A DNA stretch of 64,000 nucleotides from positions 806,001 through 870,000 of the forward strand of contig QAIB01000001.1 in the NCBI GenBank assembly GCA_030418545.1, in the 5' to 3' direction. Below the pieces are notes generated by a model, which saw only the letters and a program-made list of their open reading frames with translations, was not told where the DNA came from and ran no database searches. This DNA is from Xenophilus aerolatus. Its GTDB lineage: Bacteria > Pseudomonadota > Gammaproteobacteria > Burkholderiales > Burkholderiaceae_C. Numbering within the stretch: the stretch's first letter is position 1; each line of letters starts with the position of its first letter. The position numbers and the translations under genes were made by a program. Shown piece by piece: positions 3,033 through 61,200 of the stretch.

Positions 3033-3053
3033 GCTGCTATTCTTTCGATAGCT
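3033..3053. repeat. Truncated copy of the dispersed GCTAT-N7-ATAGC palindromic element
   Basis: The core GCTAT-N7-ATAGC (3036-3052) lies 10 bases after the E3 stop codon. The longer GC-rich arm seen in other copies is missing here; a terminator hairpin follows directly. Related copies are at 13334, 20627, 28594, 37145, 46763, 51373 and 61145. Confidence 0.5.
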
Positions 3054-3054
3054 G

Positions 3055-3089
3055 GCTGCGCAATCCCGATGCGGGTTGCGCGGCTTTTT
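3055..3089 (+). terminator. Rho-independent terminator of the pyruvate dehydrogenase operon
   Basis: A 9-bp stem (GCTGCGCAA / TTGCGCGGC, one G-T type pair) encloses a 12-base loop and is followed by TTTTT at 3085-3089. It lies between the E3 stop and the next start at 3107. Confidence 0.8.
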
Positions 3090-3106
3090 CATTCTGAAGC
3101 TCGAAC

Positions 3107-4066
3107 ATGCAAGCCCTGCTCGACGCCATCGCCCGCATGGACCGGCCCACCGAGACCGTGCGCCTCTTCCACGGTCGCGGCGGTCTGCATCCCGGCTGCG
3201 AGCACTGGGCGCTCGACGCCTACCCGCCCGTGCTGCTGCTCACCAGCTTTCGGCCGATGGACCAGGCCGAGATCGACGCCGTCGGCGACGCGCTGGCCGC
3301 GCGTTGGCGGCAACTCGATGCCGGGCCGCTGAACTGGGTGCTGCAGGTGCGCGAAGGCGGCGGCCGCACCGAGACGTGGCCCATGGCGGGTGCGGTGCCC
3401 GATCCGCACGAGGTGACCGAAGACGGGCTGCGCTACCGCGTGCACGTGCTGCGCGGCCAGAACCATGGCCTCTTCCTGGACATGGCGGCGGGCCGCCGCT
3501 GGGTGCGCGAGCACATCGCGGGGCGCGTGGCCGCCGATGCCGCGTCGCGCGCTGGCGGCGGCTGGGCGCCGCGCCTGAAAGTGCTGAACCTCTTCGCCTA
3601 CACCTGCGCCTTCTCGGTGGCGGCGCTGCATGCGGGGGCCGATCAGGTGCTGAACATGGACATGAGCAGCGGGGCGCTGGCCATCGGGCAGCAGAACCAC
3701 CGGCTCAATGGCCTGGAGGGCGGCGCGAGCTTCCTGGGGCACGACATCTTCAAGTCCTGGGGGCGCATCGGCCGCGAGGGGCCGTATGCGCTGGTCATCG
3801 TCGATCCGCCGAGCTTCCAGAAAGGCAGCTTCGTCGCCACCAAGGACTACGCGCGGATCGTGCGCCGCCTGCCGGAACTGCTGGCGCCCGGCGGGCACGC
3901 GATGCTGTGCCTCAACGCGCCGGAACTCGGGCCGGAGTTTCTGCAGGCGCTGGTGCAGGCCGAAGCGCCGGCGCTGCGCTTCGTCGAGCGTCTGGCCAAC
4001 CCGCCGGCGTTTGCGGACGCGGCGCCCGAACGGGCGCTCAAGGTGCTGATCTACCGCGCAGACTGA
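3107..4066 (+). CDS. Class I SAM-dependent methyltransferase, RlmI/RlmK C-terminal type
   Basis: A 319-residue protein with a Rossmann SAM-binding region: NLFAYTCAFSVAALHAGA (motif I area), then NMDMSSGAL as the acidic loop, and DPPSFQKGSF as the DPP[SY] catalytic motif of nucleic-acid base methyltransferases. This pattern matches the C-terminal catalytic domain of 23S rRNA methyltransferases RlmI and RlmK. The N-terminal PUA domain of RlmI is not evident, so the exact target base cannot be assigned. It is transcribed alone between two terminators (3055-3089 and 4088-4113). The start ATG has only a weak GAAG upstream. Confidence 0.8.
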   Translation: MQALLDAIARMDRPTETVRLFHGRGGLHPGCEHWALDAYPPVLLLTSFRPMDQAEIDAVGDALAARWRQLDAGPLNWVLQVREGGGRTETWPMAGAVPDPHEVTEDGLRYRVHVLRGQNHGLFLDMAAGRRWVREHIAGRVAADAASRAGGGWAPRLKVLNLFAYTCAFSVAALHAGADQVLNMDMSSGALAIGQQNHRLNGLEGGASFLGHDIFKSWGRIGREGPYALVIVDPPSFQKGSFVATKDYARIVRRLPELLAPGGHAMLCLNAPELGPEFLQALVQAEAPALRFVERLANPPAFADAAPERALKVLIYRAD

Positions 4067-4087
4067 CGACGGCGCTGCCGGCGGACG

Positions 4088-4113
4088 AAAAAAATCCCGC
4101 AGCGCGCGGGATT
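4088..4113. terminator. Bidirectional terminator between convergent genes
   Basis: The 8-bp perfect stem AATCCCGC/GCGGGATT (4093-4100 and 4106-4113) with a 5-base loop has an A-run (4088-4094) on its left, giving a U-run for the minus-strand transcript, and a T-rich flank on its right. It sits between the methyltransferase stop (4066) and the minus-strand NlpC/P60 stop (4137). Confidence 0.75.
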
Positions 4114-4136
4114 CTTCTGGGCATCGGTCCGGGCGG

Positions 4137-4685
4137 TTATTCGCCGGCCGTCTTGTTGTCCTCGATGACGCGGCGGGCGCCATTGAAGCGGCGCTGCCAG
4201 TAGCTGCCGTTCATGTCTTCGACGCGCACTTCGGAGCCGGTGCGGGGGGAGTGGATGAACTTGCCGTCGCCGATGTAGATGCCGACATGGCTGAAGGCGC
4301 GGCGCATGGTGTTGAAGAAGACCAGGTCACCGGGCTTGAGGTCGCTGCGGTCGATCTTCTCGGTGGCGGCGGCCTGCTCTTCGGCGCGGCGCGGCAGCAG
4401 CAGGCCGACCGACTTGTTGTACATGGCGCGCACGAAGCCGCTGCAGTCGAAGCCCGTCTCGGCGCTGTTGCCGCCGCGGCGGTAGGGGACGCCCAGGAAG
4501 CCCATGGCGCTGACCACCAGCTCGGACGTGCGGTCGCTCACCGCGTGGCGCACGTTGTCGATGTGGCCCATGAGGCTGCGATCGGCAAGCGTCTTGTCCA
4601 TGTCATCGGTCTGGTTCTGTTGCGGGGCTGCGTAGGCAGAGGCGGCAAGAGCGAGGGCCAGAGCGGTGAGGACAATTTGACGCAT
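4137..4685 (-). CDS. Secreted NlpC/P60 family peptidoglycan endopeptidase (C40)
   Basis: A 182-residue exported cell-wall hydrolase. Residues 1-20 form a Sec signal peptide (hydrophobic LTALALALAASAYA). The NlpC/P60 domain has the catalytic Cys in FDCSGFV (C81), a His in SHVGIYIGDG (H133) and a further polar His (H145). The family cleaves D-gamma-glutamyl-diaminopimelate bonds in peptidoglycan peptides. The ATG at 4685 is chosen because it gives a clean signal peptide; a GTG at 4709 would add eight residues but lies upstream of the predicted transcription start. The gene is monocistronic, convergent with the methyltransferase and divergent from the sugar dehydrogenase. Confidence 0.9.
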   Translation of the reverse strand: MRQIVLTALALALAASAYAAPQQNQTDDMDKTLADRSLMGHIDNVRHAVSDRTSELVVSAMGFLGVPYRRGGNSAETGFDCSGFVRAMYNKSVGLLLPRRAEEQAAATEKIDRSDLKPGDLVFFNTMRRAFSHVGIYIGDGKFIHSPRTGSEVRVEDMNGSYWQRRFNGARRVIEDNKTAGE

Positions 4686-4693
4686 GGGCGCGT

Positions 4694-4722
4694 AGGATAT
4701 TGATGACACTGAACGATGTCAA
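4694..4722 (-). promoter_or_regulatory. Sigma-70 promoter for the NlpC/P60 gene, with overlapping dyad
   Basis: On the minus strand there is a perfect TTGACA (-35, 4722-4717), a 17-base spacer and TATCCT (-10, 4699-4694). The predicted transcription start is about 4687, two bases before the ATG at 4685, implying a leaderless or nearly leaderless mRNA. A dyad TGACA-N8-TGTCA (4704-4708 / 4717-4721) overlaps the spacer and -35 and could be an operator. The whole 4690-4900 interval is much AT-richer than its surroundings. Confidence 0.65.
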
Positions 4723-4901
4723 TTTGGAATATTGATTCAAAAAGTAGCGTAACCCATTGATTTTGTTCGACTTATTGCGGTGCAGCAAAAATAAAGTTGT
4801 AACACGTGCGGTTTTCATTGCCTGAGGTCATTGATCGCACACGCTCATTTGCGACTAAGTTAACGCGAAAGTTTAGGTTTCTGATTGCAAAGAGGCTGCA
4901 T

Positions 4902-6008: not shown

Positions 6009-6025
6009 AAGGCTGCGGGCCACCC

Positions 6026-6078
6026 TTCAAAAGGCTCAAGACCCGTTCGGGCTGAGCCTGTCGAGAGGGCTCAGCCCG
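6026..6078. repeat. Intergenic repeat with perfect 11-bp hairpin between convergent genes
   Basis: Contains CGTTCGGGCTGAGCCTGTCG, a motif I recognise as common between genes in many proteobacteria. CGGGCTGAGCC (6048-6058) and GGCTCAGCCCG (6068-6078) form a perfect 11-bp stem with a 9-base loop. The right arm overlaps the stop codon of the minus-strand hydrolase (6071-6073). There is no U-run, so it may act as an mRNA 3' stabiliser rather than an intrinsic terminator. Confidence 0.6.
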
Positions 6079-6853: not shown

Positions 6854-6887
6854 CGACGCAGTATCGGCCGCCGGTCCGCCGCCCGCG

Positions 6888-8540
6888 TCAGCGCGGGTCG
6901 CGACGTGGCGCGGGCAGGTCCACCATCACCGGCTGGCCCGGTGGCGCGCAGCCCGCGTCGCAGCAGCGGCCCGGCTGGCGGTTGCGGGTGATGGCGCGGG
7001 CCGGGTCGTGCGGCGCGGCGGCGGCGGAGCCGTCGGCGGCGATGCCGCGCTCCAGCAGCCGCTCCACCAGTTCGACCTTCGAGCCGACGGGGTAGTGGCG
7101 CCAGATCTCCTGCTTCATCGCCGCGGGCGAGCCGCCGCCGTGCAGGCTGATGGTGCTGTACCACCCGCCCTGGTAGCCGGCCGTGAGGTCCTCGATGAAG
7201 CGGGCGGTCTCGATGCGCTGCTCGTATGGGACCTCGGGGTTGGCGCGCAGCAGGTCGGCCAGGCGGCCGGCCGTCTCGGGGTTGTGGTCCTCGTCGGGGC
7301 CGGGCAGGGTGACGATGAGCCCGCCGCTCACGTAGTGCGCGATGCGGTGCATGTCGTAGATCTTCGTGGCCAGCAGCAGCTTGCCGATGTTGGCGAACAC
7401 CGGCTCGGGCATGAAGACGGCGCAGTGCGGGTCGGCCTTGGCGTACACGCTGGCGGCCACGCCGCAGGCGAAGAAGCTCTCGGTGATGGTGATGAGCTCG
7501 ACCATCTGCTCGCGAAGATGCGTCTCTTGCCCCGGGTCGAAGCCGTTGGCCTCGCACATCAGCGCCCCGGCGCCGATCAGCAGGTCGCCGAAGCCGGCGC
7601 GCGCGCCGATGCAGCTGTGGCGGTGGTGCGTGGCGTAGCTGTAGGTGAGGTGGCTGCTGTGCTCCCAGCTGCCGTTGCTGCCGTCGTAGAAGACACGCGC
7701 CTCGGGCACGAACACGCGGTCGAAGATGCACACGCCGGTGCTCTGGCCGTACTTGCGGCTGAAGAGCGCGTCGCCGTGCTCCAGCTTTTCGCCGGGGCGG
7801 CCGGCGGGGCGGGCCACGATGGTGAGGCCGGGTGCGTCCAGCGGCACGGCGCAGCAGACGGCGAAGTCGGCGTCCTCGCGGCCCATCGCGCGGCATGGCA
7901 TCACCAGCAGCTCGTGCACGTAGGGCGCACCGGTCACGATCGCCTTGGTGCCGCTGATGACGATGCCGCGCTGGCCGCCTTGCACGGCGTTGCGCTCCAC
8001 CACGTGCACGTAGCTGTCCACGTTGGCCTGCTGGTGCGGGCGGCGGCTGCGGTCGCCCTTGGCGTCGGTCATGGCCACGCCCAGCGTCAGGTCCTGGTCC
8101 TGCACGCGGTGCAGGTACTCGGTGAAGCGCTCGGTGTGCGCGCTGCCCCCGCCGGCATCGTCGAGCCGCGCCGACACCTGCGCGATGGCGTTGAGCGCGT
8201 CGTGCGTGAGGTAACGCTGCGCGCAGCCGGTTTCCTGGCAGATGAGCCGCACCGCCTCCAGCTTGTTGAGCAGGTCGCCGCTGCCGGTGTCGATGTGGGT
8301 CATGCGGTTGACCCGCTTGCCGCTGGTGTGCTGCATCGCCGTCATCAGCGCTGCGTACTCGGGGCGGTGCGCAAAGTCGTAGGTGAGGGCGATGGCGTTG
8401 ATGCCGGGTTGCAGCGAGGGCGCATCGGCGATGGAGTCGATCCGCCGGCCATCGACGTAGACGGTGGGGTTCAGGCGCCTGAGCGATTCGCGGTAGTCGT
8501 CGCCCGTCATGAGCGCGGCGGTGGCGTGGGGAGCGTTCAA
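6888..8540 (-). CDS. HpaB/AbfD superfamily protein (4-hydroxyphenylacetate 3-hydroxylase / 4-hydroxybutyryl-CoA dehydratase fold)
   Basis: A 550-residue flavoprotein-fold enzyme. Its layout follows 4-hydroxybutyryl-CoA dehydratase (AbfD) more than E. coli HpaB: MTGDDYRESLRRLN start, MTDAKGDRS, KYGQSTGVCIFDRVFVPEAR, and a Cys-rich tail RQPGRCCDAGC. Against AbfD recalled from memory, the [4Fe-4S] ligands are only half kept: the Cys99 equivalent is C106 and His292 is H306, but Cys103 is Y110 and Cys299 is A313; Tyr296 is C310. A plain FAD-dependent aromatic or acyl-CoA enzyme is therefore more likely than a true dehydratase. The TTG start at 8540 is chosen for AGGAG six bases upstream; an ATG at 8510 is the alternative. 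Divergent from the isochorismatase gene. Confidence 0.75.
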   Translation of the reverse strand: MNAPHATAALMTGDDYRESLRRLNPTVYVDGRRIDSIADAPSLQPGINAIALTYDFAHRPEYAALMTAMQHTSGKRVNRMTHIDTGSGDLLNKLEAVRLICQETGCAQRYLTHDALNAIAQVSARLDDAGGGSAHTERFTEYLHRVQDQDLTLGVAMTDAKGDRSRRPHQQANVDSYVHVVERNAVQGGQRGIVISGTKAIVTGAPYVHELLVMPCRAMGREDADFAVCCAVPLDAPGLTIVARPAGRPGEKLEHGDALFSRKYGQSTGVCIFDRVFVPEARVFYDGSNGSWEHSSHLTYSYATHHRHSCIGARAGFGDLLIGAGALMCEANGFDPGQETHLREQMVELITITESFFACGVAASVYAKADPHCAVFMPEPVFANIGKLLLATKIYDMHRIAHYVSGGLIVTLPGPDEDHNPETAGRLADLLRANPEVPYEQRIETARFIEDLTAGYQGGWYSTISLHGGGSPAAMKQEIWRHYPVGSKVELVERLLERGIAADGSAAAAPHDPARAITRNRQPGRCCDAGCAPPGQPVMVDLPAPRRDPR

Positions 8541-8546
8541 ACGTGT

Positions 8547-8551
8547 CTCCT
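8547..8551 (-). promoter_or_regulatory. Shine-Dalgarno AGGAG deciding a TTG start
   Basis: AGGAG on the minus strand, six bases before the TTG at 8540-8538. No equally good site precedes the ATG at 8510, which is 30 bases further into the gene. Confidence 0.6.
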
Positions 8552-12733: not shown

Positions 12734-14647
12734 ATGTCCAGCTACGCCGAATTCCACCGCCGCTCCCTGGAGCATCCCGAAGCCTTCTGGGCCGAGCAGG
12801 CCCGCCTGATCGACTGGCACCAGGCGCCGACGCAGATCCTGGACGCCAGCCGGCCGCCGTTCTGCCGCTGGTTCGTGGGCGGCCAGACCAACCTGTGCCA
12901 CAACGCGGTCGACCGGCACCTGGCCCAGCGCGGCGAGCAGCCGGCGCTCATCGCGATCTCGACCGAGACGGGCAGCGAGCGCAGCTATACCTTTCGCGAA
13001 CTGCACGCCGAGGTGCAGCGCACGGCGGCGATGCTGATCGAACTGGGCGTGCAGCGCGGCGACCGCGTGCTCATCTACATGCCCATGATCGCGCAGGCCG
13101 CCTTCGCGATGCTGGCCTGCGCACGCATCGGCGCCATCCACTGCGTGGTGTTCGGCGGCTTCGCCAGCGGCTCGCTGGCCTCGCGCATCGAGGACGCGCA
13201 GCCGAAGGTGGTCGTCAGCGCCGACGCGGGCTCGCGCGGCGGCAAGGTGGTGCCGTACAAGCCGCTGCTGGACGAGGCGATCCGCCTGTCGGCCCACAAG
13301 CCGGCGGCGGTGCTGCTGTACGACCGGGGCCTCGCTGCTATGGAATTGGTAGCGGGTCGCGACCATCTGGCGGCCGCTGCAGGCCAAAACCATGCCCAAA
13401 CGCAGGTGCCGTGTACCTGGCTAAATGCGACCGATATCAGCTACACCATCTACACCAGCGGCACCACCGGCAAGCCCAAGGGCGTGCAGCGCGACGTGGG
13501 CGGCTACGCGGTCGCGCTGGCGGCCAGCATGCGGCACATCTTCGATGGCCGAGCCGGTGAGACGTACTTTTCCACCAGCGACATCGGCTGGGTCGTCGGC
13601 CACAGCTACATCGTCTATGGGCCGCTGATCGCCGGCATGGCCACGATCATGTACGAGGGTCTGCCCACGCAGGGCATGGACCGCCAGCCGGATGGCGGCA
13701 TCTGGTGGCGCCTGGTCGAGAAGTACAAGGTGACAGTGATGTTCAGCGCGCCCACGGCCGTGCGCGTGCTCAAGAAGCAGGACCCGGCATTGCTCAGGAA
13801 GTACGACCTGTCGAGCCTGCGCGCGCTCTTCCTGGCCGGTGAGCCGCTGGACGAACCCACGGCCCGGTGGATCAGCGAGGGCCTGGGCGTGCCGATCATC
13901 GACAACTACTGGCAGACCGAATCGGGCTGGCCGATCATCACGCTGCCCAGCGGCGTGGAGCGTCGGCCGGCGAAGTTCGGCAGCCCGGGCATCGCGATGT
14001 ACGGCTACAAGGTGAAGATCGTGCACGAGACCACGGGCGAGGAACTCACGGCGCCCAACGAGAAGGGCGTGGTCGTGATCGAAGGACCGACGCCACCGGG
14101 CTTCATGCAGACCGTGTGGCGCGACGACGAGCGCTTCGTCAACACCTACTGGAAGAGCATCCCCGGCAAGCTCGTGTACTCCACCTTCGACTGGGGCATC
14201 CGCGACGTGGAGGGCTACTACTACATCCTCGGGCGCACCGATGACGTGATCAACGTCGCCGGCCACCGCCTGGGCACGCGCGAGATCGAGGAGGCCATCT
14301 CCGGCCATGCCAACGTGGCCGAGGTCGCGGTGGTGGGCGTCGCCGATGCGCTCAAGGGGCAGGTCGCGATGGCCTTCGTGGTGCCCAGGACGGGCAACGC
14401 TGCGACCGACAGCGCCGAGGCGATGAAGCTCGAGGGCGAGATCATGAAGCGGGTGGCCGACGACCTCGGTGCGCTGGCGCGGCCGGCGCGCGTGCGCTTC
14501 GTGCCCGGCCTGCCCAAGACGCGCAGCGGCAAGCTGCTGCGCCGCGCCATCCAGGCCGTGTGCGAGCAGCGCGACCCGGGCGACCTGACCACGCTCGACG
14601 ACCCCGCCACGCTGCAGGCCGTGCGCACCGCCGTGGCGGCGGGTTGA
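12734..14647 (+). CDS. prpE: Propionate-CoA ligase (acetyl-CoA synthetase family)
   Basis: A 637-residue AMP-forming acyl-CoA synthetase that activates propionate via propionyl-AMP. It shows the ACAS N-terminal domain, the P-loop-like YTSGTTGKPKGVQRD, the WVVGHSYIVYGPL and DNYWQTESGWP substrate-site segments, and the C-terminal TRSGKLLRR whose Lys is the acetylation-regulated catalytic lysine. GVQRD and VVGHSY favour PrpE over AcsA. ACAGGAGA four bases before the ATG supports the start. Unusually, residues 201-219 are encoded in frame by a copy of the dispersed palindromic element (13334-13389), in a loop between the adenylation core strands. It does not sit with prpB/prpC genes. Confidence 0.92.
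   Translation: MSSYAEFHRRSLEHPEAFWAEQARLIDWHQAPTQILDASRPPFCRWFVGGQTNLCHNAVDRHLAQRGEQPALIAISTETGSERSYTFRELHAEVQRTAAMLIELGVQRGDRVLIYMPMIAQAAFAMLACARIGAIHCVVFGGFASGSLASRIEDAQPKVVVSADAGSRGGKVVPYKPLLDEAIRLSAHKPAAVLLYDRGLAAMELVAGRDHLAAAAGQNHAQTQVPCTWLNATDISYTIYTSGTTGKPKGVQRDVGGYAVALAASMRHIFDGRAGETYFSTSDIGWVVGHSYIVYGPLIAGMATIMYEGLPTQGMDRQPDGGIWWRLVEKYKVTVMFSAPTAVRVLKKQDPALLRKYDLSSLRALFLAGEPLDEPTARWISEGLGVPIIDNYWQTESGWPIITLPSGVERRPAKFGSPGIAMYGYKVKIVHETTGEELTAPNEKGVVVIEGPTPPGFMQTVWRDDERFVNTYWKSIPGKLVYSTFDWGIRDVEGYYYILGRTDDVINVAGHRLGTREIEEAISGHANVAEVAVVGVADALKGQVAMAFVVPRTGNAATDSAEAMKLEGEIMKRVADDLGALARPARVRFVPGLPKTRSGKLLRRAIQAVCEQRDPGDLTTLDDPATLQAVRTAVAAG
13334..13389 (-). repeat. Dispersed palindromic element, copy inside prpE
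   Basis: The core GCTAT-N7-GTAGC (13337-13353) is followed by the GC-rich arm and ends in GCAGGCCAAAA. It is in reverse orientation relative to the copies in rluB and bamB. It begins exactly at codon 201 of prpE and adds about 19 residues (from AAMELVAG to AAGQN) without breaking the frame. Confidence 0.7.
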
Positions 14648-14796: not shown

Positions 14797-14901
14797 GGCC
14801 CTTCCCCAGCCACAGTCGCATCCGCCAATCGGTTCAGCCGTGTCGCGGAAGGTTTTCAAACCAGCTAATGCTTCCTTCAGGGAAGCGGAGGTCAGCGGAA
14901 C

Positions 14902-17781
14902 ATGAGCGATTCTTCGTCTCCATCGACGGTCTACACCGCCTATCAAGGCAACTCCTACCTCTTCGGCGGCAACGCGCCCTATGTCGAAGAGATGTACGAG
15001 AACTACCTCGCCAACCCGGGCAGCGTGCCCGACAACTGGCGCTCCTACTTCGACGCACTCCAGCACGTGCCTGCCACCGACGGCAGCAACACGAAGGACG
15101 TCCCCCATCTTCCGGTCATCAACGCCTTCGCCGAGCGTGCGAAGCAGGGCACCACGAAGGTCGTGCAGGCCAGCGGCGCCGATTCCGAACTGGGCCGCCA
15201 GCGCACCGCCGTCCAGCAGCTGATCGCCGCGTACCGCAACGTCGGCGCCCGCTGGGCCGACCTCGACCCGCTCAAGCGCACCGAGCGCCCGGCCATTCCC
15301 GAGCTCGAGCCGTCCTTCTACGGCTTCTCCGACGCCGACCTCGAAACCGTCTTCAACACCAGCAACACCTTCTTCGGCAAGGACACGATGTCCCTGCGCG
15401 AGCTGCTGAATGCGCTGCGTGAAACCTACTGCGGCACCATCGGCGCCGAGTACATGTACATCACCGACCAGGCGCAGAAGCGCTGGTGGCAGGAAAAGCT
15501 GGAAAGCGCCCGCACGAATCCCAAGCTGAGCAACGAGCAGAAGAAGCGCGTGCTCGACCGCCTCACGGCCGCCGAAGGCCTGGAGCGCTTCCTGCACACC
15601 AAGTACGTCGGCCAGAAGCGCTTCTCGCTCGAGGGCGGCGAGAGCTTCATCGTCTCGATGGACGAGCTGATCAACCGCGCCGGCGAGAAGGGCGTGCAGG
15701 AGATCGTCATCGGCATGGCCCACCGCGGCCGCCTGAACGTGCTGGTCAACACCCTGGGCAAGATGCCCAAGGACCTGTTCGCCGAGTTCGACCACACCGC
15801 GCCCGAAGATCTGCCCAGCGGCGACGTGAAGTACCACCAGGGCTTCAGCTCCGACGTCAGCACCCCTGGCGGCCCGGTGCACCTGTCGCTGGCGTTCAAC
15901 CCCTCGCACCTCGAGATCGTGAACCCGGTCGTCGAAGGATCCGTGCGTGCACGCATGGACCGCCGCGGCGACAAGGAAGGCGACCAGGTCCTGCCCGTGC
16001 TGGTGCACGGCGATGCGGCCTTCGCCGGCCAGGGCGTCGTGATGGAAACGCTGGCGCTGGCCGAGACCCGCGGCTACTACACCGGCGGCACGGTCCACAT
16101 CGTCATCAACAACCAGATCGGCTTCACCACCAGCGACCCGCGCGACAGCCGCTCGACGCTGTACTGCACCGACGTGGTCAAGATGATCGACGCGCCGGTT
16201 CTGCACGTGAATGGCGACGATCCCGAAGCCGTGGTGCTGTGCACGCAACTCGCCCTCGAGTACCGCCAGGAGTTCAACAAGGACGTGGTGGTCGACATCG
16301 TCTGCTTCCGCAAGCTGGGCCACAACGAGCAGGACACCCCGTCCCTCACCCAGCCGCTGATGTACAAGAAGATCGCGGCCCACCCCGGCACGCGCAAGCT
16401 GTACGCCGACAAGCTGGCCGCGCAGGGCCTGGGCGACACGCTGGGCGACGACATGGTCAAGGCGCAGCGCGCCGCCTTCGACGCCGGCAAGAACACTTCC
16501 GACCCGGTGCTCACCAACTTCAAGAGCAAGTACGCGGTCGACTGGAGCCCCTACCTCAACAAGAAGTGGACCGATGCCGCCGACACGGCGATCCCGCTCG
16601 CCGAGTGGAAGCGCCTGGCCGAGAAGATCACCACGGTGCCGTCGGGCTTCACCGTGCACCCGCTGGTCAAGAAGGTGCTGGACGACCGCGCCGCCATGGG
16701 CCGAGGCGACGTCAACGTCGACTGGGGCATGGGCGAGCACATGGCCTTCGCCTCGCTGGTGGCCAGCGGCTACCCGGTGCGCCTGTCGGGTGAGGACTCC
16801 GGCCGCGGCACCTTCACGCACCGCCATGCGGTGCTGCACGACCAGAACCGCGAGAAGTTCGACGAAGGCACCTACGTGCCGCTGCAGAACGTGGCCGAGA
16901 ACCAGGCACCGTTCGTCGTCATCGACTCCATCCTGTCCGAAGAGGCGGTGCTGGCCTTCGAATACGGCTACGCCTCCAACGACCCGAGCACCCTCGTGAT
17001 CTGGGAAGCGCAGTTCGGCGACTTCGTCAACGGCGCCCAGGTGGTGATCGACCAGTTCATCGCCTCCGGCGAAGTGAAGTGGGGCCGCGTGAACGGCCTG
17101 ACGCTGATGCTGCCGCACGGCTATGAAGGGCAGGGCCCCGAGCACAGCTCGGCGCGCCTGGAGCGCTTCATGCAGCTCGCGGCCGACACCAACATGCAGG
17201 TCGTGCAGCCGACCACGGCCAGCCAGATCTTCCACGTGCTGCGCCGTCAGCAGATCCGCAACCTGCGCAAGCCGCTGGTCATCATGACGCCGAAGTCGCT
17301 GCTGCGGAACAAGGACGCGACCTCCCCGCTGTCGGAGTTCATCAAGGGCGGCTTCCAGACCGTCATCCCCGACAGCAAGGAACTCAAGGCCGAGAAGGTC
17401 AAGCGCATCGTCGCCTGCTCGGGCAAGGTGTACTACGACCTGGCCAAGAAGCGCGAGGAGAAGGGCGCCGACGACGTGGCCCTGCTGCGCGTCGAGCAGC
17501 TCTATCCCTTCCCGCACAAGGCCTTCGCGGCCGAGATCAAGAAGTACGCCAACGCGACCGAGATCGTGTGGTGCCAGGACGAGCCGCAGAACCAGGGTGC
17601 CTGGTTCTTCGTGCAGCACTACATCCACGAGAACATGCTCGACGGGCAGAAGCTGGGTTATGCCGGCCGTGCCGCCTCGGCCTCGCCGGCCGTGGGCTAT
17701 TCGCACCTGCACCAGGAACAGCAGAAGGCGCTGGTCGACGGCGCCTTCGGCAAGCTGAAGGGCTTCGTGCTGACCAAGTAA
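14902..17781 (+). CDS. sucA: 2-oxoglutarate dehydrogenase E1 component
   Basis: A 959-residue thiamine-diphosphate enzyme that decarboxylates 2-oxoglutarate and succinylates the lipoyl group of SucB in the TCA cycle. The N-terminal NSYLFGGNAPYVEEMYENY is the E2-binding segment typical of bacterial E1o. GMAHRGRLNVL, HVNGDDPEAV (ThDP/Mg region), FRKLGHNEQD and HGYEGQGPEHSSARLERF are conserved core motifs. Length is normal for the family. CGGAGG ten bases before the ATG supports the start. It heads the operon sucA-sucB-lpd, with 100 bp before sucB. Confidence 0.98.
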   Translation: MSDSSSPSTVYTAYQGNSYLFGGNAPYVEEMYENYLANPGSVPDNWRSYFDALQHVPATDGSNTKDVPHLPVINAFAERAKQGTTKVVQASGADSELGRQRTAVQQLIAAYRNVGARWADLDPLKRTERPAIPELEPSFYGFSDADLETVFNTSNTFFGKDTMSLRELLNALRETYCGTIGAEYMYITDQAQKRWWQEKLESARTNPKLSNEQKKRVLDRLTAAEGLERFLHTKYVGQKRFSLEGGESFIVSMDELINRAGEKGVQEIVIGMAHRGRLNVLVNTLGKMPKDLFAEFDHTAPEDLPSGDVKYHQGFSSDVSTPGGPVHLSLAFNPSHLEIVNPVVEGSVRARMDRRGDKEGDQVLPVLVHGDAAFAGQGVVMETLALAETRGYYTGGTVHIVINNQIGFTTSDPRDSRSTLYCTDVVKMIDAPVLHVNGDDPEAVVLCTQLALEYRQEFNKDVVVDIVCFRKLGHNEQDTPSLTQPLMYKKIAAHPGTRKLYADKLAAQGLGDTLGDDMVKAQRAAFDAGKNTSDPVLTNFKSKYAVDWSPYLNKKWTDAADTAIPLAEWKRLAEKITTVPSGFTVHPLVKKVLDDRAAMGRGDVNVDWGMGEHMAFASLVASGYPVRLSGEDSGRGTFTHRHAVLHDQNREKFDEGTYVPLQNVAENQAPFVVIDSILSEEAVLAFEYGYASNDPSTLVIWEAQFGDFVNGAQVVIDQFIASGEVKWGRVNGLTLMLPHGYEGQGPEHSSARLERFMQLAADTNMQVVQPTTASQIFHVLRRQQIRNLRKPLVIMTPKSLLRNKDATSPLSEFIKGGFQTVIPDSKELKAEKVKRIVACSGKVYYDLAKKREEKGADDVALLRVEQLYPFPHKAFAAEIKKYANATEIVWCQDEPQNQGAWFFVQHYIHENMLDGQKLGYAGRAASASPAVGYSHLHQEQQKALVDGAFGKLKGFVLTK

Positions 17782-20601: not shown

Positions 20602-20626
20602 TCGGCGTGTCGGCGGGATTCGAGTG

Positions 20627-20680
20627 AAATCGGGCTGCAGCGCCCGCCCAACGGGCGCGTGCAGCTATGAATTCATAGCG
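20627..20680 (+). repeat. Dispersed palindromic element, intergenic copy
   Basis: A full copy between lpd and zapE: CTGCAGCGCCCGCCCAACGG with its complementary arm, then GCAGCTAT-N6-ATAGCG. The inner arms CGCCCG/CGGGCG pair, and the GCTAT/ATAGC core pairs again. It is the reverse-oriented counterpart of the copy at 61145-61200. Confidence 0.75.
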
Positions 20681-20702
20681 GTCTCGCCGTGCCTGCATCC
20701 TG

Positions 20703-28540: not shown

Positions 28541-30192
28541 GCGCACCCGACCACGACGACGTCCCCCCCTCCGGTGCGCCTGCGGAGTCAGAAGAAAAAG
28601 TGGCCGCAGCCCCCGTCCAGCCTGCGCAGACCGCTACCGAATCCATAGCAGACGGGGCGGTGGCGCCGGCCCGCAAGCGTCGTCCGCGCAAGCCCAAGGC
28701 GGAGGCCGCCGATGCGTCGGCGGCTGCCGCTGACGCCGAGCCCGTTGCCGCACCCGAGCCGGTCGCCGCGCCTGCTGTTGCCGAGCCCCCGACGTCTCCT
28801 GCGGCGCCCGTGCCCAGCGACAACGGTGCCGTCCTGGACGGCGACGATGAGGCCGAGGAAGAAGAGGACGACGAGGACGACGAAGACGAGGACGAGTTCG
28901 ACCGCGCCCGCCGCGCTGCCGAGCGCGAACAGCGCAACGCGCCGCCGCCGGAGCCGATCCAGTTCGCCGACGTCGTCTCTGGCCAGTTCGATGCCGACGA
29001 GACCAGCCCCGACGTGGCGCCGCTCAAGCGCGTGCTGCTGCCGCAGGCCGATGCGCCCAAGCTGCACAAGGTGCTGGCCCAGGCCGGGCTCGGATCGCGC
29101 CTGGAGATGGAGCGCCTGATCCTCGAGGGCCGCATCTCCGTCAACAACGAACCGGCGCACATCGGCCAGCGCATCCAGTACGGTGACCAGGTCAAGGTCA
29201 ACGGCAAGCCGATCCGCTACCGCATCGCGCCCCCGCCGCCGCGCGTCATCGCGTACCACAAGCCGGTGGGCGAGGTGGTCACGCACGACGATCCGCAGAA
29301 TCGCCCCACGGTCTTCCGCAAGCTGCCGCGCCTGGTGCAGGGCAAGTGGCAGTCGGTCGGACGGCTCGACCTGAACACCGAAGGCCTGCTGCTCTTCACC
29401 AGCTCGGGCGAGCTGGCCAACCGGCTCATGCACCCGCGATTCGGGCTGGAGCGCGAGTACGCCGTGCGCGTGCTCGGCGCGCTGAGCAACGAGGAGAAGC
29501 AGCGCCTGCTCGACGGCGTGCGGCTCGACGATGGCATGGCGCAGTTCGGCACCATCGAGGATGGCGGTGGCGAGGGTTCGAACCAGTGGTACCGCGTGAC
29601 CATCTCGGAGGGCCGCAACCGCGAGGTGCGCCGCCTGTTCGAGGCCGTCGGCCATGCCGTGAGCCGCCTGATCCGCATCCGCTACGGCGCCATGGTGCTG
29701 CCGCGCGGCCTGCGGCGCGGCGCCTGGCTGGAGCTGGACGAGCGCGACATCCGCGCCCTCACGCAGGCGGCCGGTGCCGACATGCCGGCGCCGCGCCAGC
29801 GCGAGGACGGGCCCGGCCGCGGCGCCAGCGACCGTGGCAAGAAGCGCCGCCGCGGCGGCGCGAACAAGGGCGCCGGCGGTGGCGGTGGTGGGGGCAACGG
29901 CCCGCGCCAGCCGAACCCCCTCGCCACCCGTGGCAACCCGCAGGGCGGCAACGCCGGCGGCCCCGGCGGCAGGAAGAAGCGCGGCAACGACCGCGGTCCC
30001 AAGGCCGGCGGCGGGGCAGGGGGCGGGCAGCCCGACCCGATGAAGACCTCCTTCGGCTACATCGGGGCCGACAGCTTCTCGCGCCAGCGCAAGGATCCTC
30101 GTCGCGGCGGCGGCTCCGGCGGTGGTGGCGGTGGCGGTGGCGGCGCCCCGGGCGGCGGCGGTGGCCGCGGCCGGCGTTCACGTCCGCGCTGA
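28537..30192 (+). CDS. rluB: 23S rRNA pseudouridine synthase RluB with long disordered tails
   Basis: A 551-residue RsuA-family enzyme that modifies U2605 of 23S rRNA. The core is about residues 168-425: S4 domain ([21 protein letters not shown]), catalytic Asp in [14 protein letters not shown], and [18 protein letters not shown]. The N-terminal 165 residues are low-complexity, Ala/Pro/Lys-rich then very acidic ([14 protein letters not shown]). The C-terminal 120 residues are Gly/Arg/Lys-rich, resembling an RNA-binding RGG-type tail. E. coli RluB is about 290 residues, so roughly half of this protein is extension. Residues about 20-38 are encoded by a copy of the dispersed palindromic element. 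Confidence 0.92.
28594..28650 (+). repeat. Dispersed palindromic element, copy inside the rluB N-terminal tail
   Basis: AAAAAGTGGCCGCAGCCCCC followed by the GCGCAG arm and the core GCTAC-N7-ATAGC (28633-28649). It is read in the same orientation and frame as the copies in bamB and the ABC ATPase gene, encoding a peptide of the form APVxxAxxAxxxIA. Confidence 0.65.
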
Positions 30193-37130: not shown

Positions 37131-38285
37131 ATGAATTTCAAGCGTTTTAGTGCTCCAGCGCCCGTCCTTCGTGCGGGAGCAGCTATGGTTTTGATAGCGG
37201 TCGCCGCCAGCATCGCGGCCTGCTCGGGCACGGCCAAGCCCAAGCCGGCCGAACTGCCGCCCAACAACGCCTTGATGGGCGTTCGCCAGGCCTGGACCGC
37301 CAAGCTGCCCTCGGTGGCCTTCCCGCTGCAGACGGCGGTCAGTGGCGACACCGTCACGGTGGCCGCGGCCGACGGCACCGTGGTGGCGATCGATGCCCGC
37401 ACCGGCGCCGAGCAGTGGCGCGCCAGCGTGGGCGCGCCCCTGATCGCCGGCGTCGGCAGCGACGGTTCGCTGGCCGCGGTGGTCACGGCCAACAACGAAC
37501 TGGTGGCCCTGCAGGGCGGCAAGGTGCTCTGGAAGGAGCGCCTGCCTGCCGAAACCTACACCGCGCCGCTGGTGGCCGGCCGCCGCGTGTTCGCACAGAC
37601 CGCCGACCGCAGCACCACCGCCTTCGACGGGCAGAGCGGCCGCCGCCTCTGGACCCAGACCCGTGCCGCCGGCGACGCGCTGGTGCTGCGCAAGCCCGGC
37701 GTGATGTTCCCGATCGGCGACACCCTGGTCGCCGGCGTGGGCGCGCGCATGGTGGGCATGAACCCGAACAACGGCGTCTCGCGCTGGGAAGTCCCCATCG
37801 CCTCGCCCCGTGGCACCAACGACGTCGAGCGCCTGGTCGACCTGACCGGCACCGTGAGCCGTGTCGGCGAGACCGTCTGCGCGCGCGCCTACTACGCGGC
37901 CGTCGGCTGCGTCGACACCACCCGCGGCACGCTGCTGTGGAACAAGCCCTCCGTCGGCGCCGAAGGCGTGGGCGGCGACGAGCGCGCGGTGTACGGCACC
38001 GATTCGAACGGCAGCGTGGTCGCCTGGCGCCGCACCGACGGCAACGTGATGTGGACCTCCGACCGGCTGCGCCTGCGCACGCTCACCGCGCCGCTGGCCG
38101 TGGGTCGCACGCTCGTGGTCGGCGAAGACACCGGCACCGTGCACTTCCTGTCGCGCGAGGATGGCTCGCCGCTCAACCGCCTGGCACCCGATGGCTCGGC
38201 CATCGCGGCCGCGCCGGTGCTGGCCGCCAACACCGTGGTGGTCGTGACCCGCAACGGCGGGGTCTTCGGCTACCGGCCCGAATAG
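37131..38285 (+). CDS. bamB: Outer membrane protein assembly factor BamB (beta-propeller lipoprotein)
   Basis: A 384-residue lipoprotein of the Bam complex with an eight-bladed propeller built from PQQ-like repeats (DGTVVAIDARTGAEQWRA, NELVALQGGKVLWKERL, DSNGSVVAWRRTDGNVMW). The lipobox is SIAAC (Cys31). The n- and h-regions of the signal peptide (residues about 6-23) are encoded by a full copy of the dispersed palindromic element (37145-37199), so the export signal appears to be made from repeat DNA. Followed by a strong terminator at 38351. Confidence 0.95.
   Translation: MNFKRFSAPAPVLRAGAAMVLIAVAASIAACSGTAKPKPAELPPNNALMGVRQAWTAKLPSVAFPLQTAVSGDTVTVAAADGTVVAIDARTGAEQWRASVGAPLIAGVGSDGSLAAVVTANNELVALQGGKVLWKERLPAETYTAPLVAGRRVFAQTADRSTTAFDGQSGRRLWTQTRAAGDALVLRKPGVMFPIGDTLVAGVGARMVGMNPNNGVSRWEVPIASPRGTNDVERLVDLTGTVSRVGETVCARAYYAAVGCVDTTRGTLLWNKPSVGAEGVGGDERAVYGTDSNGSVVAWRRTDGNVMWTSDRLRLRTLTAPLAVGRTLVVGEDTGTVHFLSREDGSPLNRLAPDGSAIAAAPVLAANTVVVVTRNGGVFGYRPE
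37145..37199 (+). repeat. Dispersed palindromic element, copy encoding the bamB signal peptide
   Basis: TTTTAGTGCTCCAGCGCCCG, the pairing GCGGGAGC arm, then core GCTAT-N7-ATAGC ending at 37199. Same orientation and reading frame as the copies in rluB (28594) and the ABC ATPase (51373). Confidence 0.75.
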
Positions 38286-46622: not shown

Positions 46623-46748
46623 GCGGACATCCGTACGCGAAGGGCGCGAAGATTGCGCGAAGGTCGCGAAAGAACAGCCGAAATTTTTATTCCTGATTTC
46701 TTCGCGTCCTTCGCGCAACTTTCGCGCCCTTCGCGTACGGAGGTCCGG
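46623..46748. repeat. Large near-perfect palindrome after purA built of CGCGAAGG units
   Basis: Left arm 46623-46674 and right arm 46698-46748 are inverted copies with about five mismatches over ~51 bp, enclosing a 23-base AT-rich loop. Each arm is internally made of repeated GCGAAGG-type units. It can fold into one long hairpin in RNA or a cruciform. It lies 3 bp after the purA stop, with no U-run, and is transcribed as part of any purA-phosphoribosyltransferase mRNA. Confidence 0.85.
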
Positions 46749-46762
46749 TTTTTGAAGTCAGA

Positions 46763-46814
46763 TCGGCCTGAAACGCCCACCCCACCTGCGCCACCAGCTA
46801 TCAAATCAGGAGCA
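46763..46814 (+). repeat. Dispersed palindromic element, intergenic copy providing a Shine-Dalgarno
   Basis: CGGCCTGAAACGCCC, CCTGCG arm and AGCTAT core are recognisable. The downstream ATAGC half has drifted to CAGGAGCA, creating AGGAG (46808-46812) ten bases before the next ATG. Confidence 0.6.
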
Positions 46815-46822
46815 AACGCCCC

Positions 46823-50654: not shown

Positions 50655-51431
50655 ATGTCTTCGAGCCCCGCTTCCGCATCGCCGATCGTCAGCGTCGAGC
50701 ATGTGTTCAAGTCCGTCACCGATTCGGCGGGCACGCTGGACATTCTGCGCGACATCGATTTCACCCTCGGCGCGCGGGAAACGGCCGCCATCGTCGGCGC
50801 CTCGGGCTCCGGCAAGAGCACGCTGCTGTCCATCGTGGCCGGCCTCGACGTCCCTTCGCGCGGCACCGTGCGCATCGCGGGCGACGACCTCTTCGCCATC
50901 GACGAGGACGAACGCGCCGCGCTGCGTGCCAGACAGATCGGTTTCGTGTTCCAGAGTTTCCAGCTGCTCGGCAATCTCACCGCGCTCGAGAACGTGATGC
51001 TGCCGCTGGAGCTGTCCGACCGCCCCGAGGTGCAGCGAACGGCGCGCAAGGCCGCCACCGAGATGCTGGGCCGCGTCGGCCTGGGCCAGCGCCTGTCGCA
51101 CTACCCCAAGGTGCTCTCGGGCGGCGAGCAGCAGCGCGTCGCGCTGGCGCGGGCCTTCGTCGTGCAGCCGCAGCTGCTGCTGGCCGACGAGCCCACCGGC
51201 AGCCTGGACTTCGCCACCGGCGAGCAGGTGATGCGGCTGATGTTCGACCTCAACCGCGAGCTGGGCACCACGCTCGTGCTGGTCACGCACGACCGCGGCA
51301 TCGCGGCCCAGTGCGAGCGGCGCATCACCATCGAGGCGGGCCGCGTGTCCAGCAACGAATCTTCCGAGCCGGATTGGCCTGAAGCCCCCGTGGACAGTGC
51401 GCAGGCAGCTATCAATTCCGTAGCACCCTGA
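50655..51431 (+). CDS. ABC transporter ATP-binding protein (YbbA/LolD-like)
   Basis: A 258-residue ABC ATPase. Walker A is [12 protein letters not shown]-loop FQSFQLL, signature [14 protein letters not shown], Walker [13 protein letters not shown] and H-loop VTHDRG. It belongs to the MacB/LolD/YbbA group, and its divergent position to tesA matches YbbA. The expected YbbP-type permease gene is absent downstream, so the membrane partner must be elsewhere. The last ~18 residues (after EPDW) are encoded by a copy of the dispersed element. Confidence 0.9.
51373..51425 (+). repeat. Dispersed palindromic element, copy at the 3' end of the ABC ATPase gene
   Basis: ATTGGCCTGAAGCCCCCGTG, GCGCAG arm and AGCTAT-N6-GTAGCA core. 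Read in the same frame as the rluB and bamB copies, giving the tail [14 protein letters not shown]. The stop codon follows two codons later. Confidence 0.7.
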
Positions 51432-54293: not shown

Positions 54294-54301
54294 GGACCGA
54301 T

Positions 54302-55731: not shown

Positions 55732-55733
55732 CC

Positions 55734-57403: not shown

Positions 57404-57412
57404 GGAATTCCA

Positions 57413-58734: not shown

Positions 58735-58742
58735 CCCGGTTC

Positions 58743-59759
58743 TCAATCCGCCTTGAAGCCCGTCGCCTTGACCGCCTTGCCCCAGGTCACGGTGTCGCTG
58801 TCGATGATGCGCGCGAACTCCTGCGCGGTGGTGCCGGTCACGCCGAAGCCGGCGTCTTCCATCTTCGACTTGCCGTCGGCCGATTGCATGGCCTTGCGGA
58901 TGTCGGCCTCGAGCCGGGCGACGATCTCCGGCGGCGTCTTCGCGGGCGCGACGATGCCGAACCAGGAGTTGAAGACCAGCTGCGGGTAGCCCTGTTCGCG
59001 GAAGGTGGGCACCTCGGGCAGGCCGGCGCTGCGCGCCTCGCCGCTGGAGGCGAGCGCGACCAGCTTGCCCGCTTTCACGTTCGGCGTGGCCAGGCCGACG
59101 CTGGCGAAGGCGCCGGACACGTCGCCGCTCATCAGGCCGGCCAGGGCGTCGCCGGTGTTCTTGTAGTGCACCGGCTCGGGCTTGATGCCGATGGCGTCGC
59201 CGAACAGGTAGGCACCGAAGTGGCCGGGCGTGCCGGCGCCGAAGGTGCCCATGAACAGGCCCTTCTGCTGCCTGGTCCAGTCGACGAATTCCTTGACGTT
59301 CTTCGCCGGCACCTTGGCCGGGTTGACCACCAGCATGAAGTTGCTGGTCACGACCTGGCTCACGGGCACGAAGTCCTTCTTCGGGTCGTAGGGCAGCTTG
59401 CTGTAGCTGCTGGGGGCGATCGCGAGCTGGCCGGTTTCGCCGAGCATCAGTGTGTAGCCGTCGGGCTGGGCGCGCACGGTCTCGTTGGCCGCGATGAGGC
59501 CGCCGGCACCGGGCTTGTTGTCGACGATCACGCCCAGGTTGCCCCAGCCTTCGGACAGCTTCTGCGCCAGCAGGCGGGCGACGATGTCCGGGCCCGTGCC
59601 GGCCGGGAAGCCGACGATGATGCGCACCGGCCGGTTGGGGAAGGGCGCGGCCTGGGCGGTCGCCTGCGATGCGGCCAGCGCGGCGGTCAGGCCCAGGGTG
59701 GCGCTGGCAATGAGCGTGAGCGCGCGGCGGCGCGCGCCCGTCGTGGGGGCGTTCGTCAT
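58743..59759 (-). CDS. Bug-family tripartite tricarboxylate transporter substrate-binding protein
   Basis: A 338-residue periplasmic receptor with a signal peptide ending AAPFPNRPV. Family signatures are PNRPVRIIVGFPAGTGPD, VIVDNKPGAGGLIAANETV and MGTFGAGTPGHFGAYLFG. AGGAGACAACC before the ATG is a good ribosome-binding site. It is convergent with the catabolic operon (8 bp between stops) and downstream of the DUF3237 gene on the same strand. It probably supplies the locus with its substrate (inference); no tctAB nearby. Confidence 0.92.
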   Translation of the reverse strand: MTNAPTTGARRRALTLIASATLGLTAALAASQATAQAAPFPNRPVRIIVGFPAGTGPDIVARLLAQKLSEGWGNLGVIVDNKPGAGGLIAANETVRAQPDGYTLMLGETGQLAIAPSSYSKLPYDPKKDFVPVSQVVTSNFMLVVNPAKVPAKNVKEFVDWTRQQKGLFMGTFGAGTPGHFGAYLFGDAIGIKPEPVHYKNTGDALAGLMSGDVSGAFASVGLATPNVKAGKLVALASSGEARSAGLPEVPTFREQGYPQLVFNSWFGIVAPAKTPPEIVARLEADIRKAMQSADGKSKMEDAGFGVTGTTAQEFARIIDSDTVTWGKAVKATGFKAD

Positions 59760-59795
59760 GGTTGTCTCCTCTTGGGTCGGAAAAAAAGGCGAGTG

Positions 59796-60284
59796 CTACA
59801 GCACGGTGAAGAAGCGCATGACCACCTGTGCCGGATGGCGGACCCCCACGCCGACGAACAGGCGCTCGGTGATCCAGCGCAGGGCCGGCGATGTCGTTTC
59901 GAAGCTCGGGCTGCAGCGGAAATAGATCTGCGACGGGTCCACCGGCTCGCCGCGCAGCAGCTTCGCCATGACCTCGGCCGGCGCGGTGCGCACGGCGCGG
60001 TTCTGCACGTAGACGAGGTCGCCGGCGTCGGTCTCGAGGCCGTAGCGGGCGTCGAGCTCGGAGGCGGTGTCGCTGGTGATGCGCTGGAAGTCGGCGCCGC
60101 CGGGCAGCACGCGGGCGCGCCAGCCCTCGCCGTGGGCGCTGCCGCCGACGATGGGGACCACGCGGCGCAGGCCGCCGGCGCCCTGGCCCAGGACCAGCGG
60201 CTCGCCCACGTCGACGGCCACGTCGGCGAACCAGCCGAGGGCAGGGGGGGCGAGCGGGTTGGTGTCGGCGGGGGAGAGAGGCAT
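59796..60284 (-). CDS. DUF3237 domain protein
   Basis: A 162-residue beta-barrel-like protein matching DUF3237 (UPF0311): GQGAGGLRRVVPIVGGSAHGEG, LPGGADFQRI, LDARYGLETDAGDLVYVQNRA and a C-terminal FVGVGVRHPAQVVMRFFTV. Family function is unknown, though it recurs beside aromatic and quinate catabolism genes in my recollection. It is followed by the Bug gene after 36 bp. Confidence 0.82.
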   Translation of the reverse strand: MPLSPADTNPLAPPALGWFADVAVDVGEPLVLGQGAGGLRRVVPIVGGSAHGEGWRARVLPGGADFQRITSDTASELDARYGLETDAGDLVYVQNRAVRTAPAEVMAKLLRGEPVDPSQIYFRCSPSFETTSPALRWITERLFVGVGVRHPAQVVMRFFTVL

Positions 60285-60331
60285 CGCGCTAGCGTAAGTC
60301 CGGTGGCTGGGCGAGGCTGTCATCCGCGAAG

Positions 60332-61162
60332 ATGACGGGCTTACCCGCACCGACTCCCATGCGCACCTGGACCCCCGAACCCTCGACCGAAGGCGCCGAG
60401 GCGCTGCTGGCGCGGTGCATGCCGCAGGTGGTGCCTGCCCTGGGCGAGCCGGGCTTCGGCGCCTGCCTGCTCGACGCGATGGCGCAGGCGCTGCCGGTGG
60501 GTTCGTTCTCCGTCTACCGCACCGGCCCGCGTCCGGCGATCTTCGTGAGCGGCAGCCGCGGCGTGCCCGACACCACCCGCGACTGCTGGCGCGCCTACCT
60601 GTCCGGGCCGATCCGGCACGACCGCACGCTGCGCGACGCTGGCGCGCCGCCGCTGCGCGTGTGCCACATCACGGCCGGCGAGGTGCCGCCCGAGCACCGC
60701 GCCAAGGTGTACGAGGCGCACGGCGTGCTCGAGCGGGTGTCGGTGGTCGAGGACGAATCGACCGAAGAAGGTGCGCTCTTCGCCGTCAATTTCTACCGCC
60801 ACAGGCACCAGCATGCATTGAGCGACGCCCAGATCGCGGACTTCGGTGCGGCCGGGCGCCTGCTGATGGCCCTGGCGCGCAAGCACGTGGCGCTGGTGCG
60901 CGCGGACGAGCGCCCGAACCTGCGCGAGCGCCTTCTGGCGCACTGTCCCGCACTCACGGTGCGCGAGCAGGAGGTCTGCCTGCGCCTGCTGCGCGGCATG
61001 ACGCAGGAGGGCATCGCTGCCGACCTGGGCGTGGCGCTGCCGACGGTCAAGACCTACCGAAACCGCGCCTTCGGCCGGCTCGGCATCCACTTTCGCAGCG
61101 AGCTGTTCGCGCTGATGCTGCCCGACGGCCGGACGCCGCCCGATCTGCTATCGGATGGATAG
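60332..61162 (+). CDS. LuxR-type helix-turn-helix transcriptional regulator
   Basis: A 276-residue protein. The C-terminal GerE/LuxR HTH is about residues 212-268 (LTVREQEVCLRLLRGMTQEGIAADLGVALPTVKTYRNRAF). The N-terminal 200 residues have no domain I can name. ATG at 60359 is an alternative start; neither has a ribosome-binding site. Divergent from the DUF3237-Bug pair by 47 bp, so it may regulate them. The last codons and the TAG stop lie in a palindromic element copy. Confidence 0.85.
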   Translation: MTGLPAPTPMRTWTPEPSTEGAEALLARCMPQVVPALGEPGFGACLLDAMAQALPVGSFSVYRTGPRPAIFVSGSRGVPDTTRDCWRAYLSGPIRHDRTLRDAGAPPLRVCHITAGEVPPEHRAKVYEAHGVLERVSVVEDESTEEGALFAVNFYRHRHQHALSDAQIADFGAAGRLLMALARKHVALVRADERPNLRERLLAHCPALTVREQEVCLRLLRGMTQEGIAADLGVALPTVKTYRNRAFGRLGIHFRSELFALMLPDGRTPPDLLSDG

Positions 61163-61200
61163 CTGCTCACGCCCGTGGGGCGGGCGCTGCAGCCACTTTT
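61145..61200 (-). repeat. Dispersed palindromic element overlapping the LuxR gene stop
   Basis: CTGCTAT-N7-ATAGCTGCTC followed by ACGCCCGTGGGGCGGGCGCT with internal pairing GCCCG/CGGGC. The ATAG core provides the TAG stop codon (61160-61162) of the LuxR-type gene. Reverse complement of the copy at 20627-20680. Confidence 0.75.

Follow-up and report, generated by a model that had tools for sequence, protein, structure and literature searches.

In this study we analysed a window of 64,000 nucleotides (G000:C11:806001-870000), meaning the whole stretch of DNA considered here, from the 5.84-Mb genome of a Xenophilus relative within the Comamonadaceae (G000), which carries eight copies of a dispersed unit of about 64 bp in which a GC-rich block is followed by a 17-bp palindromic core, GCTAT-N7-ATAGC. 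Our results suggest that this unit is more aptly regarded as a recognition motif in double-stranded DNA than as an element that inserts. We show that the core is held at fixed sites in four species by a force acting on the DNA bases, and comparisons of orthologous sites suggest that the motif has been gained and lost largely by substitution in place, not by jumping. The explanation that we believe accounts best for these observations, with a probability of roughly 0.4, is that the motif would be recognised by a reader protein and maintained by a drive of the type proposed for uptake sequences.

First, the constraint on the core was measured at the eight window sites in the four species that maintain the motif (G000, G013, G002 and G012). 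Of 400 comparisons made over the ten core bases, 2 showed a difference, as did 426 of 3115 (14%) in the 40-bp flanks; the figures become 0 of 190 and 207 of 1487 once the pairs that include G000, where the sites were ascertained, are left out; as the pairs share ancestry, these figures are counts and not independent trials. The other positions of the unit differ in 100 of 560 (weak), 64 of 514 (middling) and 135 of 1080 (other strong) comparisons, so that whatever constraint exceeds that of the flanks sits in the core. The window copies were present in G013, G002 and G012 wherever the flanks could be matched (unmatched were G013 and G012 at 3033 and G012 at 13334), and the copies in rluB, in bamB and in the spacer of a phosphoribosyltransferase gene are also orthologous in G040. 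At bamB the residues encoded by the core are the same in the four maintaining species and in a further species, G008, and are specified by GCT and the rare codon ATA in the four maintainers and by the synonymous GCC and ATT in G008.

G008, which is 93% identical over a 20-kb region, has altered core bases at all eight window sites. Its core differs in 84 of 250 comparisons against 361 of 1926 in the flanks, and is thus the fastest-changing part of the site, perhaps through loss of AT-rich bases under GC bias. A tree of the 20-kb der region places G008 as sister to G000, G012, G002 and G013 (support 0.996), which rules out that it is a loser nested inside the maintainers and weakens the argument for loss. 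This argument is partly restored by cores at the same place of rluB in Variovorax J22R193 and OK212 and in bamB of Polaromonas C04, which favour erosion at these two sites, parallel gain in Variovorax and Polaromonas being a possible alternative. G008 also retains 43 perfect cores, compared with 1-9 in the outgroups, and we infer that G008, X. azovorans and Pseudacidovorax probably lost the motif and did not simply never have it. These findings bear on the expectation of the initial annotation that distant genera would not share the same peptides at the same sites, which holds only in part: a similar peptide occurs in the bamB of X. azovorans and Variovorax, and the Variovorax and Polaromonas sites just named carry the motif together with its core.

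Second, a profile (R1), built on 30 copies of G000 from outside the window that had been picked by their core pattern, recovered from the window exactly the eight copies that the initial annotation had placed there, and its next-best match reached only 20.9 bits, at 1473:

Copy 1, 3034 to 3097, minus strand: intergenic, between a dihydrolipoamide dehydrogenase-like gene and a methyltransferase gene (R1 38.7 bits).
Copy 2, 13335 to 13398, minus strand: within prpE (AMP-binding), on the opposite strand (31.5 bits).
Copy 3, 20619 to 20681, plus strand: intergenic, upstream of an AFG1-like ATPase gene (70.2 bits).
Copy 4, 28588 to 28651, plus strand: N-terminal linker of rluB (44.6 bits; codon view).
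Copy 5, 37137 to 37200, plus strand: signal peptide of bamB (62.5 bits; codon view).
Copy 6, 46752 to 46815, plus strand: spacer upstream of the phosphoribosyltransferase gene (46.6 bits).
Copy 7, 51363 to 51426, plus strand: inside the final 22 codons of an ABC ATPase gene (54.0 bits; orthologues).
Copy 8, 61145 to 61208, minus strand: 3' end of a LuxR-type gene, including its TAG stop (63.2 bits; orthologues).
Near-copy, 1473 to 1545, plus strand: lipoyl-domain linker (20.9 bits).

Pfam matches and positions agree with the earlier proposal that five copies lie in or overlap genes (prpE, rluB, bamB, the ABC ATPase gene and the LuxR-type gene), codon views bear out the common orientation and frame of the rluB, bamB and ABC ATPase copies, and copy 8 provides the LuxR-type gene with its TAG stop codon. 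The GC-rich part of copy 1 occupies the position of a terminator-like hairpin, which is present in G008 too, and orthologues of this copy were recovered in G002 and G008. At copy 2, prpE has the same length as in the outgroups, and an alignment with PDB entry 5gxd spans the site with a gap of two residues only. Orthologues of copy 3 were found in G013, G002 and G012, and its core is altered in G008. Copy 6, whose right half is identical across the four species, ends its core in GGAGC, and the resulting AGGAG may double as a ribosome-binding site. At the near-copy, G002 scores 35.1 bits against 20.9 in G000, the two being a few substitutions apart. A second, unlike hairpin repeat with CGCGAAGG-type arms adjoins copy 6 at window positions 46624-46747, where its sequence differs across species as if exchanged, and a similar repeat upstream of pyrC (L049, about 8340-8440) adjoins the pyrC copy.

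The consensus of 97 copies is TTCGAGCCAAATCGGCCTGCAGCGCCCGCCCGGCGGGCGCGAGCAGCTATCAATTCGATAGCAA, to which individual copies are about 73% similar, and the second block occurs in two forms, CGGGCGC and CCTGCGC. Within these 97 copies, the apparent GC-rich stem pairs no better than it does with shuffled partners, and covariation is unconvincing, with P 0.03 for one of the seven stem pairs and 0.25-1 for the others. We therefore read the unit as a sequence and not as a fold, and this lack of convincing covariation speaks against a hairpin or RNA structure. No window copy matched Rfam at its gathering score; the sole match in the window was the SucA RNA motif at 14816-14897 (87.9 bits), upstream of a gene that starts at 14902.

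Third, the motif is abundant in G000. The strict pattern CAGCTAT-N7-ATAGC has 140 matches in the genome and its reversed control none, which rules out a chance origin, and GCTAT-N7-ATAGC occurs as 206 perfect cores. At R1 scores of at least 31 bits, a sample of 464 kb yielded 51 copies and an unbroken stretch of 480 kb yielded 44; these two partly overlapping samples extrapolate to about 535-640 copies of the 64-bp unit; a genome-wide search with R1 returned at least 150. The genome search that the initial annotation had called for thus upholds a family dispersed well beyond chance. By comparison, R1 had no match at E 0.05 or below in 169 kb from nine element-poor congeners, nor at E 0.01 in a further 57 kb of X. 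azovorans DSM 13620, the closest named relative of G000 in a scan of the der gene. Among 15 genomes of the genus, perfect cores number 206-294 in G000, G040, G002, G012 and G013, 43 in G008 and 1-9 in the remaining nine, X. azovorans having 9. Across 250 genomes of the family, where counts rest on the core pattern without the GC-rich block, 95 genomes (54 of 115 genera) contain at least one strict match and 50 contain at least 20, and since the control pattern gives 0-6 matches per genome, one or two strict matches elsewhere mean little. Among named examples, strict matches number from 88 in Simplicispira metamorpha DSM 1837, 61 in Acidovorax facilis DSM 649 and 44 in Paracidovorax valerianellae through 20 in Comamonas testosteroni (control 2), 8 in Variovorax paradoxus and 3 in X. 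azovorans to 0 in Pseudacidovorax NFM-22 and Hydrogenophaga pseudoflava. A consensus query at E 0.01 found one plasmid match (Diaphorobacter) and no phage match, a weak test given how little copies resemble the consensus, which we did not use.

Placement was examined for 69 distinct copies (81 minus 12 duplicates), with genes called from codon-position GC content. The gene caller put 42 copies between genes and 12 inside them, with 10 overlapping the 3' end of a gene and 5 the 5' end; after the starts of bamB and rluB had been corrected by hand, 14 of the 69 lie inside genes and 55 between genes or at their ends. As about 89% of the sample is coding, copies inside genes are depleted, so that the earlier statement that the element repeatedly ends up inside genes is right in that such copies are real, including those in prpE, rluB and bamB, where the motif is indeed tolerated as protein sequence, and wrong if taken as a preference. 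A copy in L016 that precedes a prmC/hemK-like gene is probably upstream of the true start. Twelve of the 42 intergenic copies sit between convergent genes, several filling the whole gap, and seven copies, oriented opposite to the gene, overlap its 3' end by 15-18 bases (exactly 18 in five cases), which fits a core that provides the TAG stop; the TAG was read directly at 61145 only. The 17 genic placements (12 inside, 3 overlapping by at least 52 bases, bamB and rluB) are distributed over the three phases as 9:2:2 when on the strand of the gene and as 4:0:0 when on the opposite one, with P 0.009 for at least 9 of 13 same-strand copies in one named phase, and the frame bias that had been proposed for testing against chance is thus supported. 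Gaps shorter than 2 kb are scarce (2 seen, 7.2 expected, P 0.01). Regular spacing, suggested by the window (coefficient of variation 0.23, P 0.0005), was rejected over 480 kb (1.14, 44 copies). Long copy-free stretches lie at about 411-480, 635-668 and 736-779 kb of G000:C11, with GC content near that of the genome.

Fourth, we compared the lengths of ten genic copies with G013 and with up to four outgroup congeners, addB having no outgroup. Five of the nine copies with an outgroup show no gain in length: trpF and prpE are equally long in all genomes compared, pyrC is as long as in all outgroups (G013 being 9 nt longer, in the flank), cobS is as long as in three outgroups and 3 nt shorter than in G005, and the ABC ATPase gene (abc) is 1 nt longer than its sole outgroup. 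Several genic copies thus show no gain over motif-less outgroups and appear to have arisen by substitution. The tracts in trpF, prpE, pyrC and cobS are 42-62% identical to the outgroups, against 0.70-0.80 in the 60 bp on each side; the flanks are for the most part 65-89% identical, with 44-55% on the left side of pyrC, where the flank extends into intergenic DNA. In G013, R1 scores 33.6-56.9 bits at trpF, pyrC, dapE, cobS and sdr, with no match at the site in the outgroup loci, and 36.8 and 46.8 bits in its two prpE copies (L206 and L211, each with the motif at the same site), with no match at the site in four outgroups; at pccA, G005 scores 23.6 bits. The spacer bases within the prpE core of G013 and G002 are already present in X. 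azovorans. At strong positions without the motif base in the outgroups (six genes, two species), the motif base was found 103 times, a native base 55 times and neither 14 times, a base being scored as native if any of the up to four outgroups has it, which inflates that count. At intergenic sites of the outgroups, spacer lengths are too variable for empty sites to be judged. The comparison of orthologues suggested in the initial annotation therefore has a divided outcome, with no gain at prpE and abc and a gain of DNA at dapE, and its proposal of a mobile element is not well supported, given window copies that are orthologous across species and five of nine genic copies without gain.

We propose that a sequence-specific DNA-binding protein would read the core, that fragments carrying the motif would be preferentially taken up and recombined into the chromosome, and that near-matches would be drawn towards the motif wherever the protein sequence permits. 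We prefer a drive of this type because it can push the motif into structured enzymes at small cost to the protein and would account for the bias towards gene ends, the frame bias and the scarcity of close pairs. Put more generally, and at a little short of even odds, the Comamonadaceae may possess a hitherto undescribed system that reads DNA through a 17-bp palindromic core within the 64-bp consensus; this core would be driven into hundreds of loci, codons of housekeeping enzymes among them, and would dissolve once the system is lost.

Several observations weigh against such a drive acting by substitution in place. At dapE there is a clean gain of 66-78 bp relative to G004, G003 and G009 (G005 has 46 nt of other sequence at the site), so that added DNA was involved in some copies. 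At pccA the excess over the outgroups is 12 nt and lies right of the tract, at sdr it is 15 nt (6 nt relative to G009), and the length of lhr varies. At the in-place sites, weak positions are only 0.48-0.61 identical, against 0.60-0.83 among the outgroups, a divergence that exceeds what pure substitution towards the motif predicts. In 4 of 50 intergenic copies the core ends in GGAGC, a double change from ATAGC, whereas the single change AGAGC occurs in none, and this recurrence suggests either that copying was templated or that GGAGC is a functional alternative. In-place change and copying may both have contributed, and given the recurrent GGAGC end the spread by gene conversion that had been suggested earlier may play a part. 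The state of G008 could reflect erosion or a stage never completed. Spacing is irregular overall, so that only the scarcity of close pairs holds, and, to our knowledge, a unit of 64 bp that occurs about once per 10 kb exceeds known uptake sequences in length and is more thinly spread. Moreover, no uptake receptor was found, ComEC being the only competence gene tested; it is present in 79 of 80 genomes, G008 and element-poor genomes included, is absent only from the draft genome G007, and is thus non-discriminating and rejected as the missing factor. In G016, a single-contig genome with 28 strict matches, the ComEC match falls into three pieces (G016:C1:1836740-1837544) and the gene is possibly broken.

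Nearly as likely as uptake drive, and likewise short of even odds, is that the copies are hundreds of chromosomal binding sites for a dimeric protein, nucleoid-organising or LysR-like, each kept by ordinary selection. The core has strict dyad symmetry around a 7-bp spacer, what is conserved is its sequence and not a fold, and CTAT-N7-ATAG fits the T-N11-A box of LysR-like proteins; copies are rarely less than 2 kb apart, and the state of G008 would follow from loss of the protein. However, the presence of the motif in structured TrpF and PrpE, with amino-acid changes, demands a strong benefit at each site, no candidate protein was identified, and core counts swing from more than 200 to 1-9 inside one genus.

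We consider it unlikely that the unit is a REP-like element spread by RAYT, a Y1 transposase encoded by a single-copy gene in G000 (G000:C32:153596-154288). After the RAYT stop codon comes an element-like copy in G000, G002, G012 and G013 (R1 43 bits in G012, 27.5 in G013, 16-17 in G000 and G002), and a GCTA[TC] half-site precedes the 3' TGTCCC of RAYT in 15 of 19 genomes with at least 20 strict matches compared with 6 of the 24 genomes below that number (Fisher P 0.0007, uncorrected for phylogeny; G012 and G022 were dropped as no 3' motif was found). In addition, two catalytic residues, the second histidine of the HUH motif and the tyrosine, have been lost from the RAYT of X. azovorans, a genome with 9 cores, and both are kept in all 21 genomes examined that have at least 20 strict matches. 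These residues are, however, also intact in many element-poor genomes, and 241 of the 250 genomes of the family carry the gene, whether motif-bearing or not; within the genus, Y1_Tnp has one match in 13 of 14 genomes, that of G003 being found through a protein search. RAYT correlates with the motif, yet it leaves three genomes unexplained: neither G247 (41 strict matches) nor G259 (13) yields a RAYT match at E 1e-20, and in G008 the gene is intact and constrained (16 nonsynonymous and 53 synonymous codon differences to G000). The pair TGTCCCC..TCTGACCCC that belongs to RAYT occurs in 868 kb only at the RAYT locus, and neither the lack of convincing stem covariation nor the in-place copies without length gain fit this model. 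Most RAYT genes that we examined (L061 3596-4288 and its orthologues) have a TGTCCCC...TCTGACCCC-like pair downstream, directly next to which many genera have a GCTAY-N-TTTGAT half-site.

Finally, it is very improbable that the copies are ordinary transcription terminators or RNA elements, as the 12 convergent intergenic copies and the hairpin overlapped by copy 1 might indicate, given genic copies on either strand, synonymous core bases that are kept, no convincing covariation and no Rfam match to the window copies.

Taken together, what seemed a mobile repeat would make better sense as a DNA code that takes precedence over codon choice and over some protein sequence, and the maintaining species, their sister G008 with its altered cores and the motif-poor outgroups form a natural experiment for finding the factor involved. 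If the motif is a true uptake signal, it would point to transformation biased by sequence in environmental betaproteobacteria, beyond the two groups in which such signals are known; if not, it would represent a chromosome-wide binding code of several hundred sites. We did not find the motif described in the literature searched, by topic or by literal 12- and 11-base pieces, in titles among the matches listed, and the available portions of PMC3733652 and PMC6006769 do not mention the taxa sought. The Beta-proteobacterial repeat element (BRE), according to the available part of its report, occurs in Polaromonas, Acidovorax, Delftia and Rhodoferax, in part within coding sequences (Hot et al. 2011, PMC3110155), and resembles our motif in its related host genera and genic copies; going by its description only, it differs in being a tandem repeat of variable copy number, 75-91 bp long in Bordetella (bprJ repeat). 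Like REP/REPIN sequences with their RAYT, whose features we took from parts of PMC8049555 and PMC2817692, the motif forms hundreds of palindrome-bearing copies in a genome with a single-copy RAYT; unlike them, it has no conserved pairing, shares fixed sites across species and includes copies without length gain, and RAYT is not sufficient for it and perhaps not necessary. Its behaviour also has parallels in the DNA uptake sequences (DUS) of Neisseriaceae and the uptake signal sequences (USS) of Pasteurellaceae, from which it differs in its length of about 64 bp, its palindromic 17-bp core, its density of about one per 10 kb and its patchy presence within a genus. As in those systems, hundreds of copies of one motif are over-represented in and outside genes (140 strict matches, control 0) and show biases in reading frame and towards gene ends, as reported for uptake sequences in the portion of van Passel 2008 available to us (PMC2346458). 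At the compared sites, dapE, sdr, pccA and lhr being exceptions, the motif also appears to have evolved gradually in place, in line with the gradual molecular drive from mismatched forms that has been proposed for uptake sequences in the consulted parts of PMC2346458 and PMC1939737 (Bakkali 2007).

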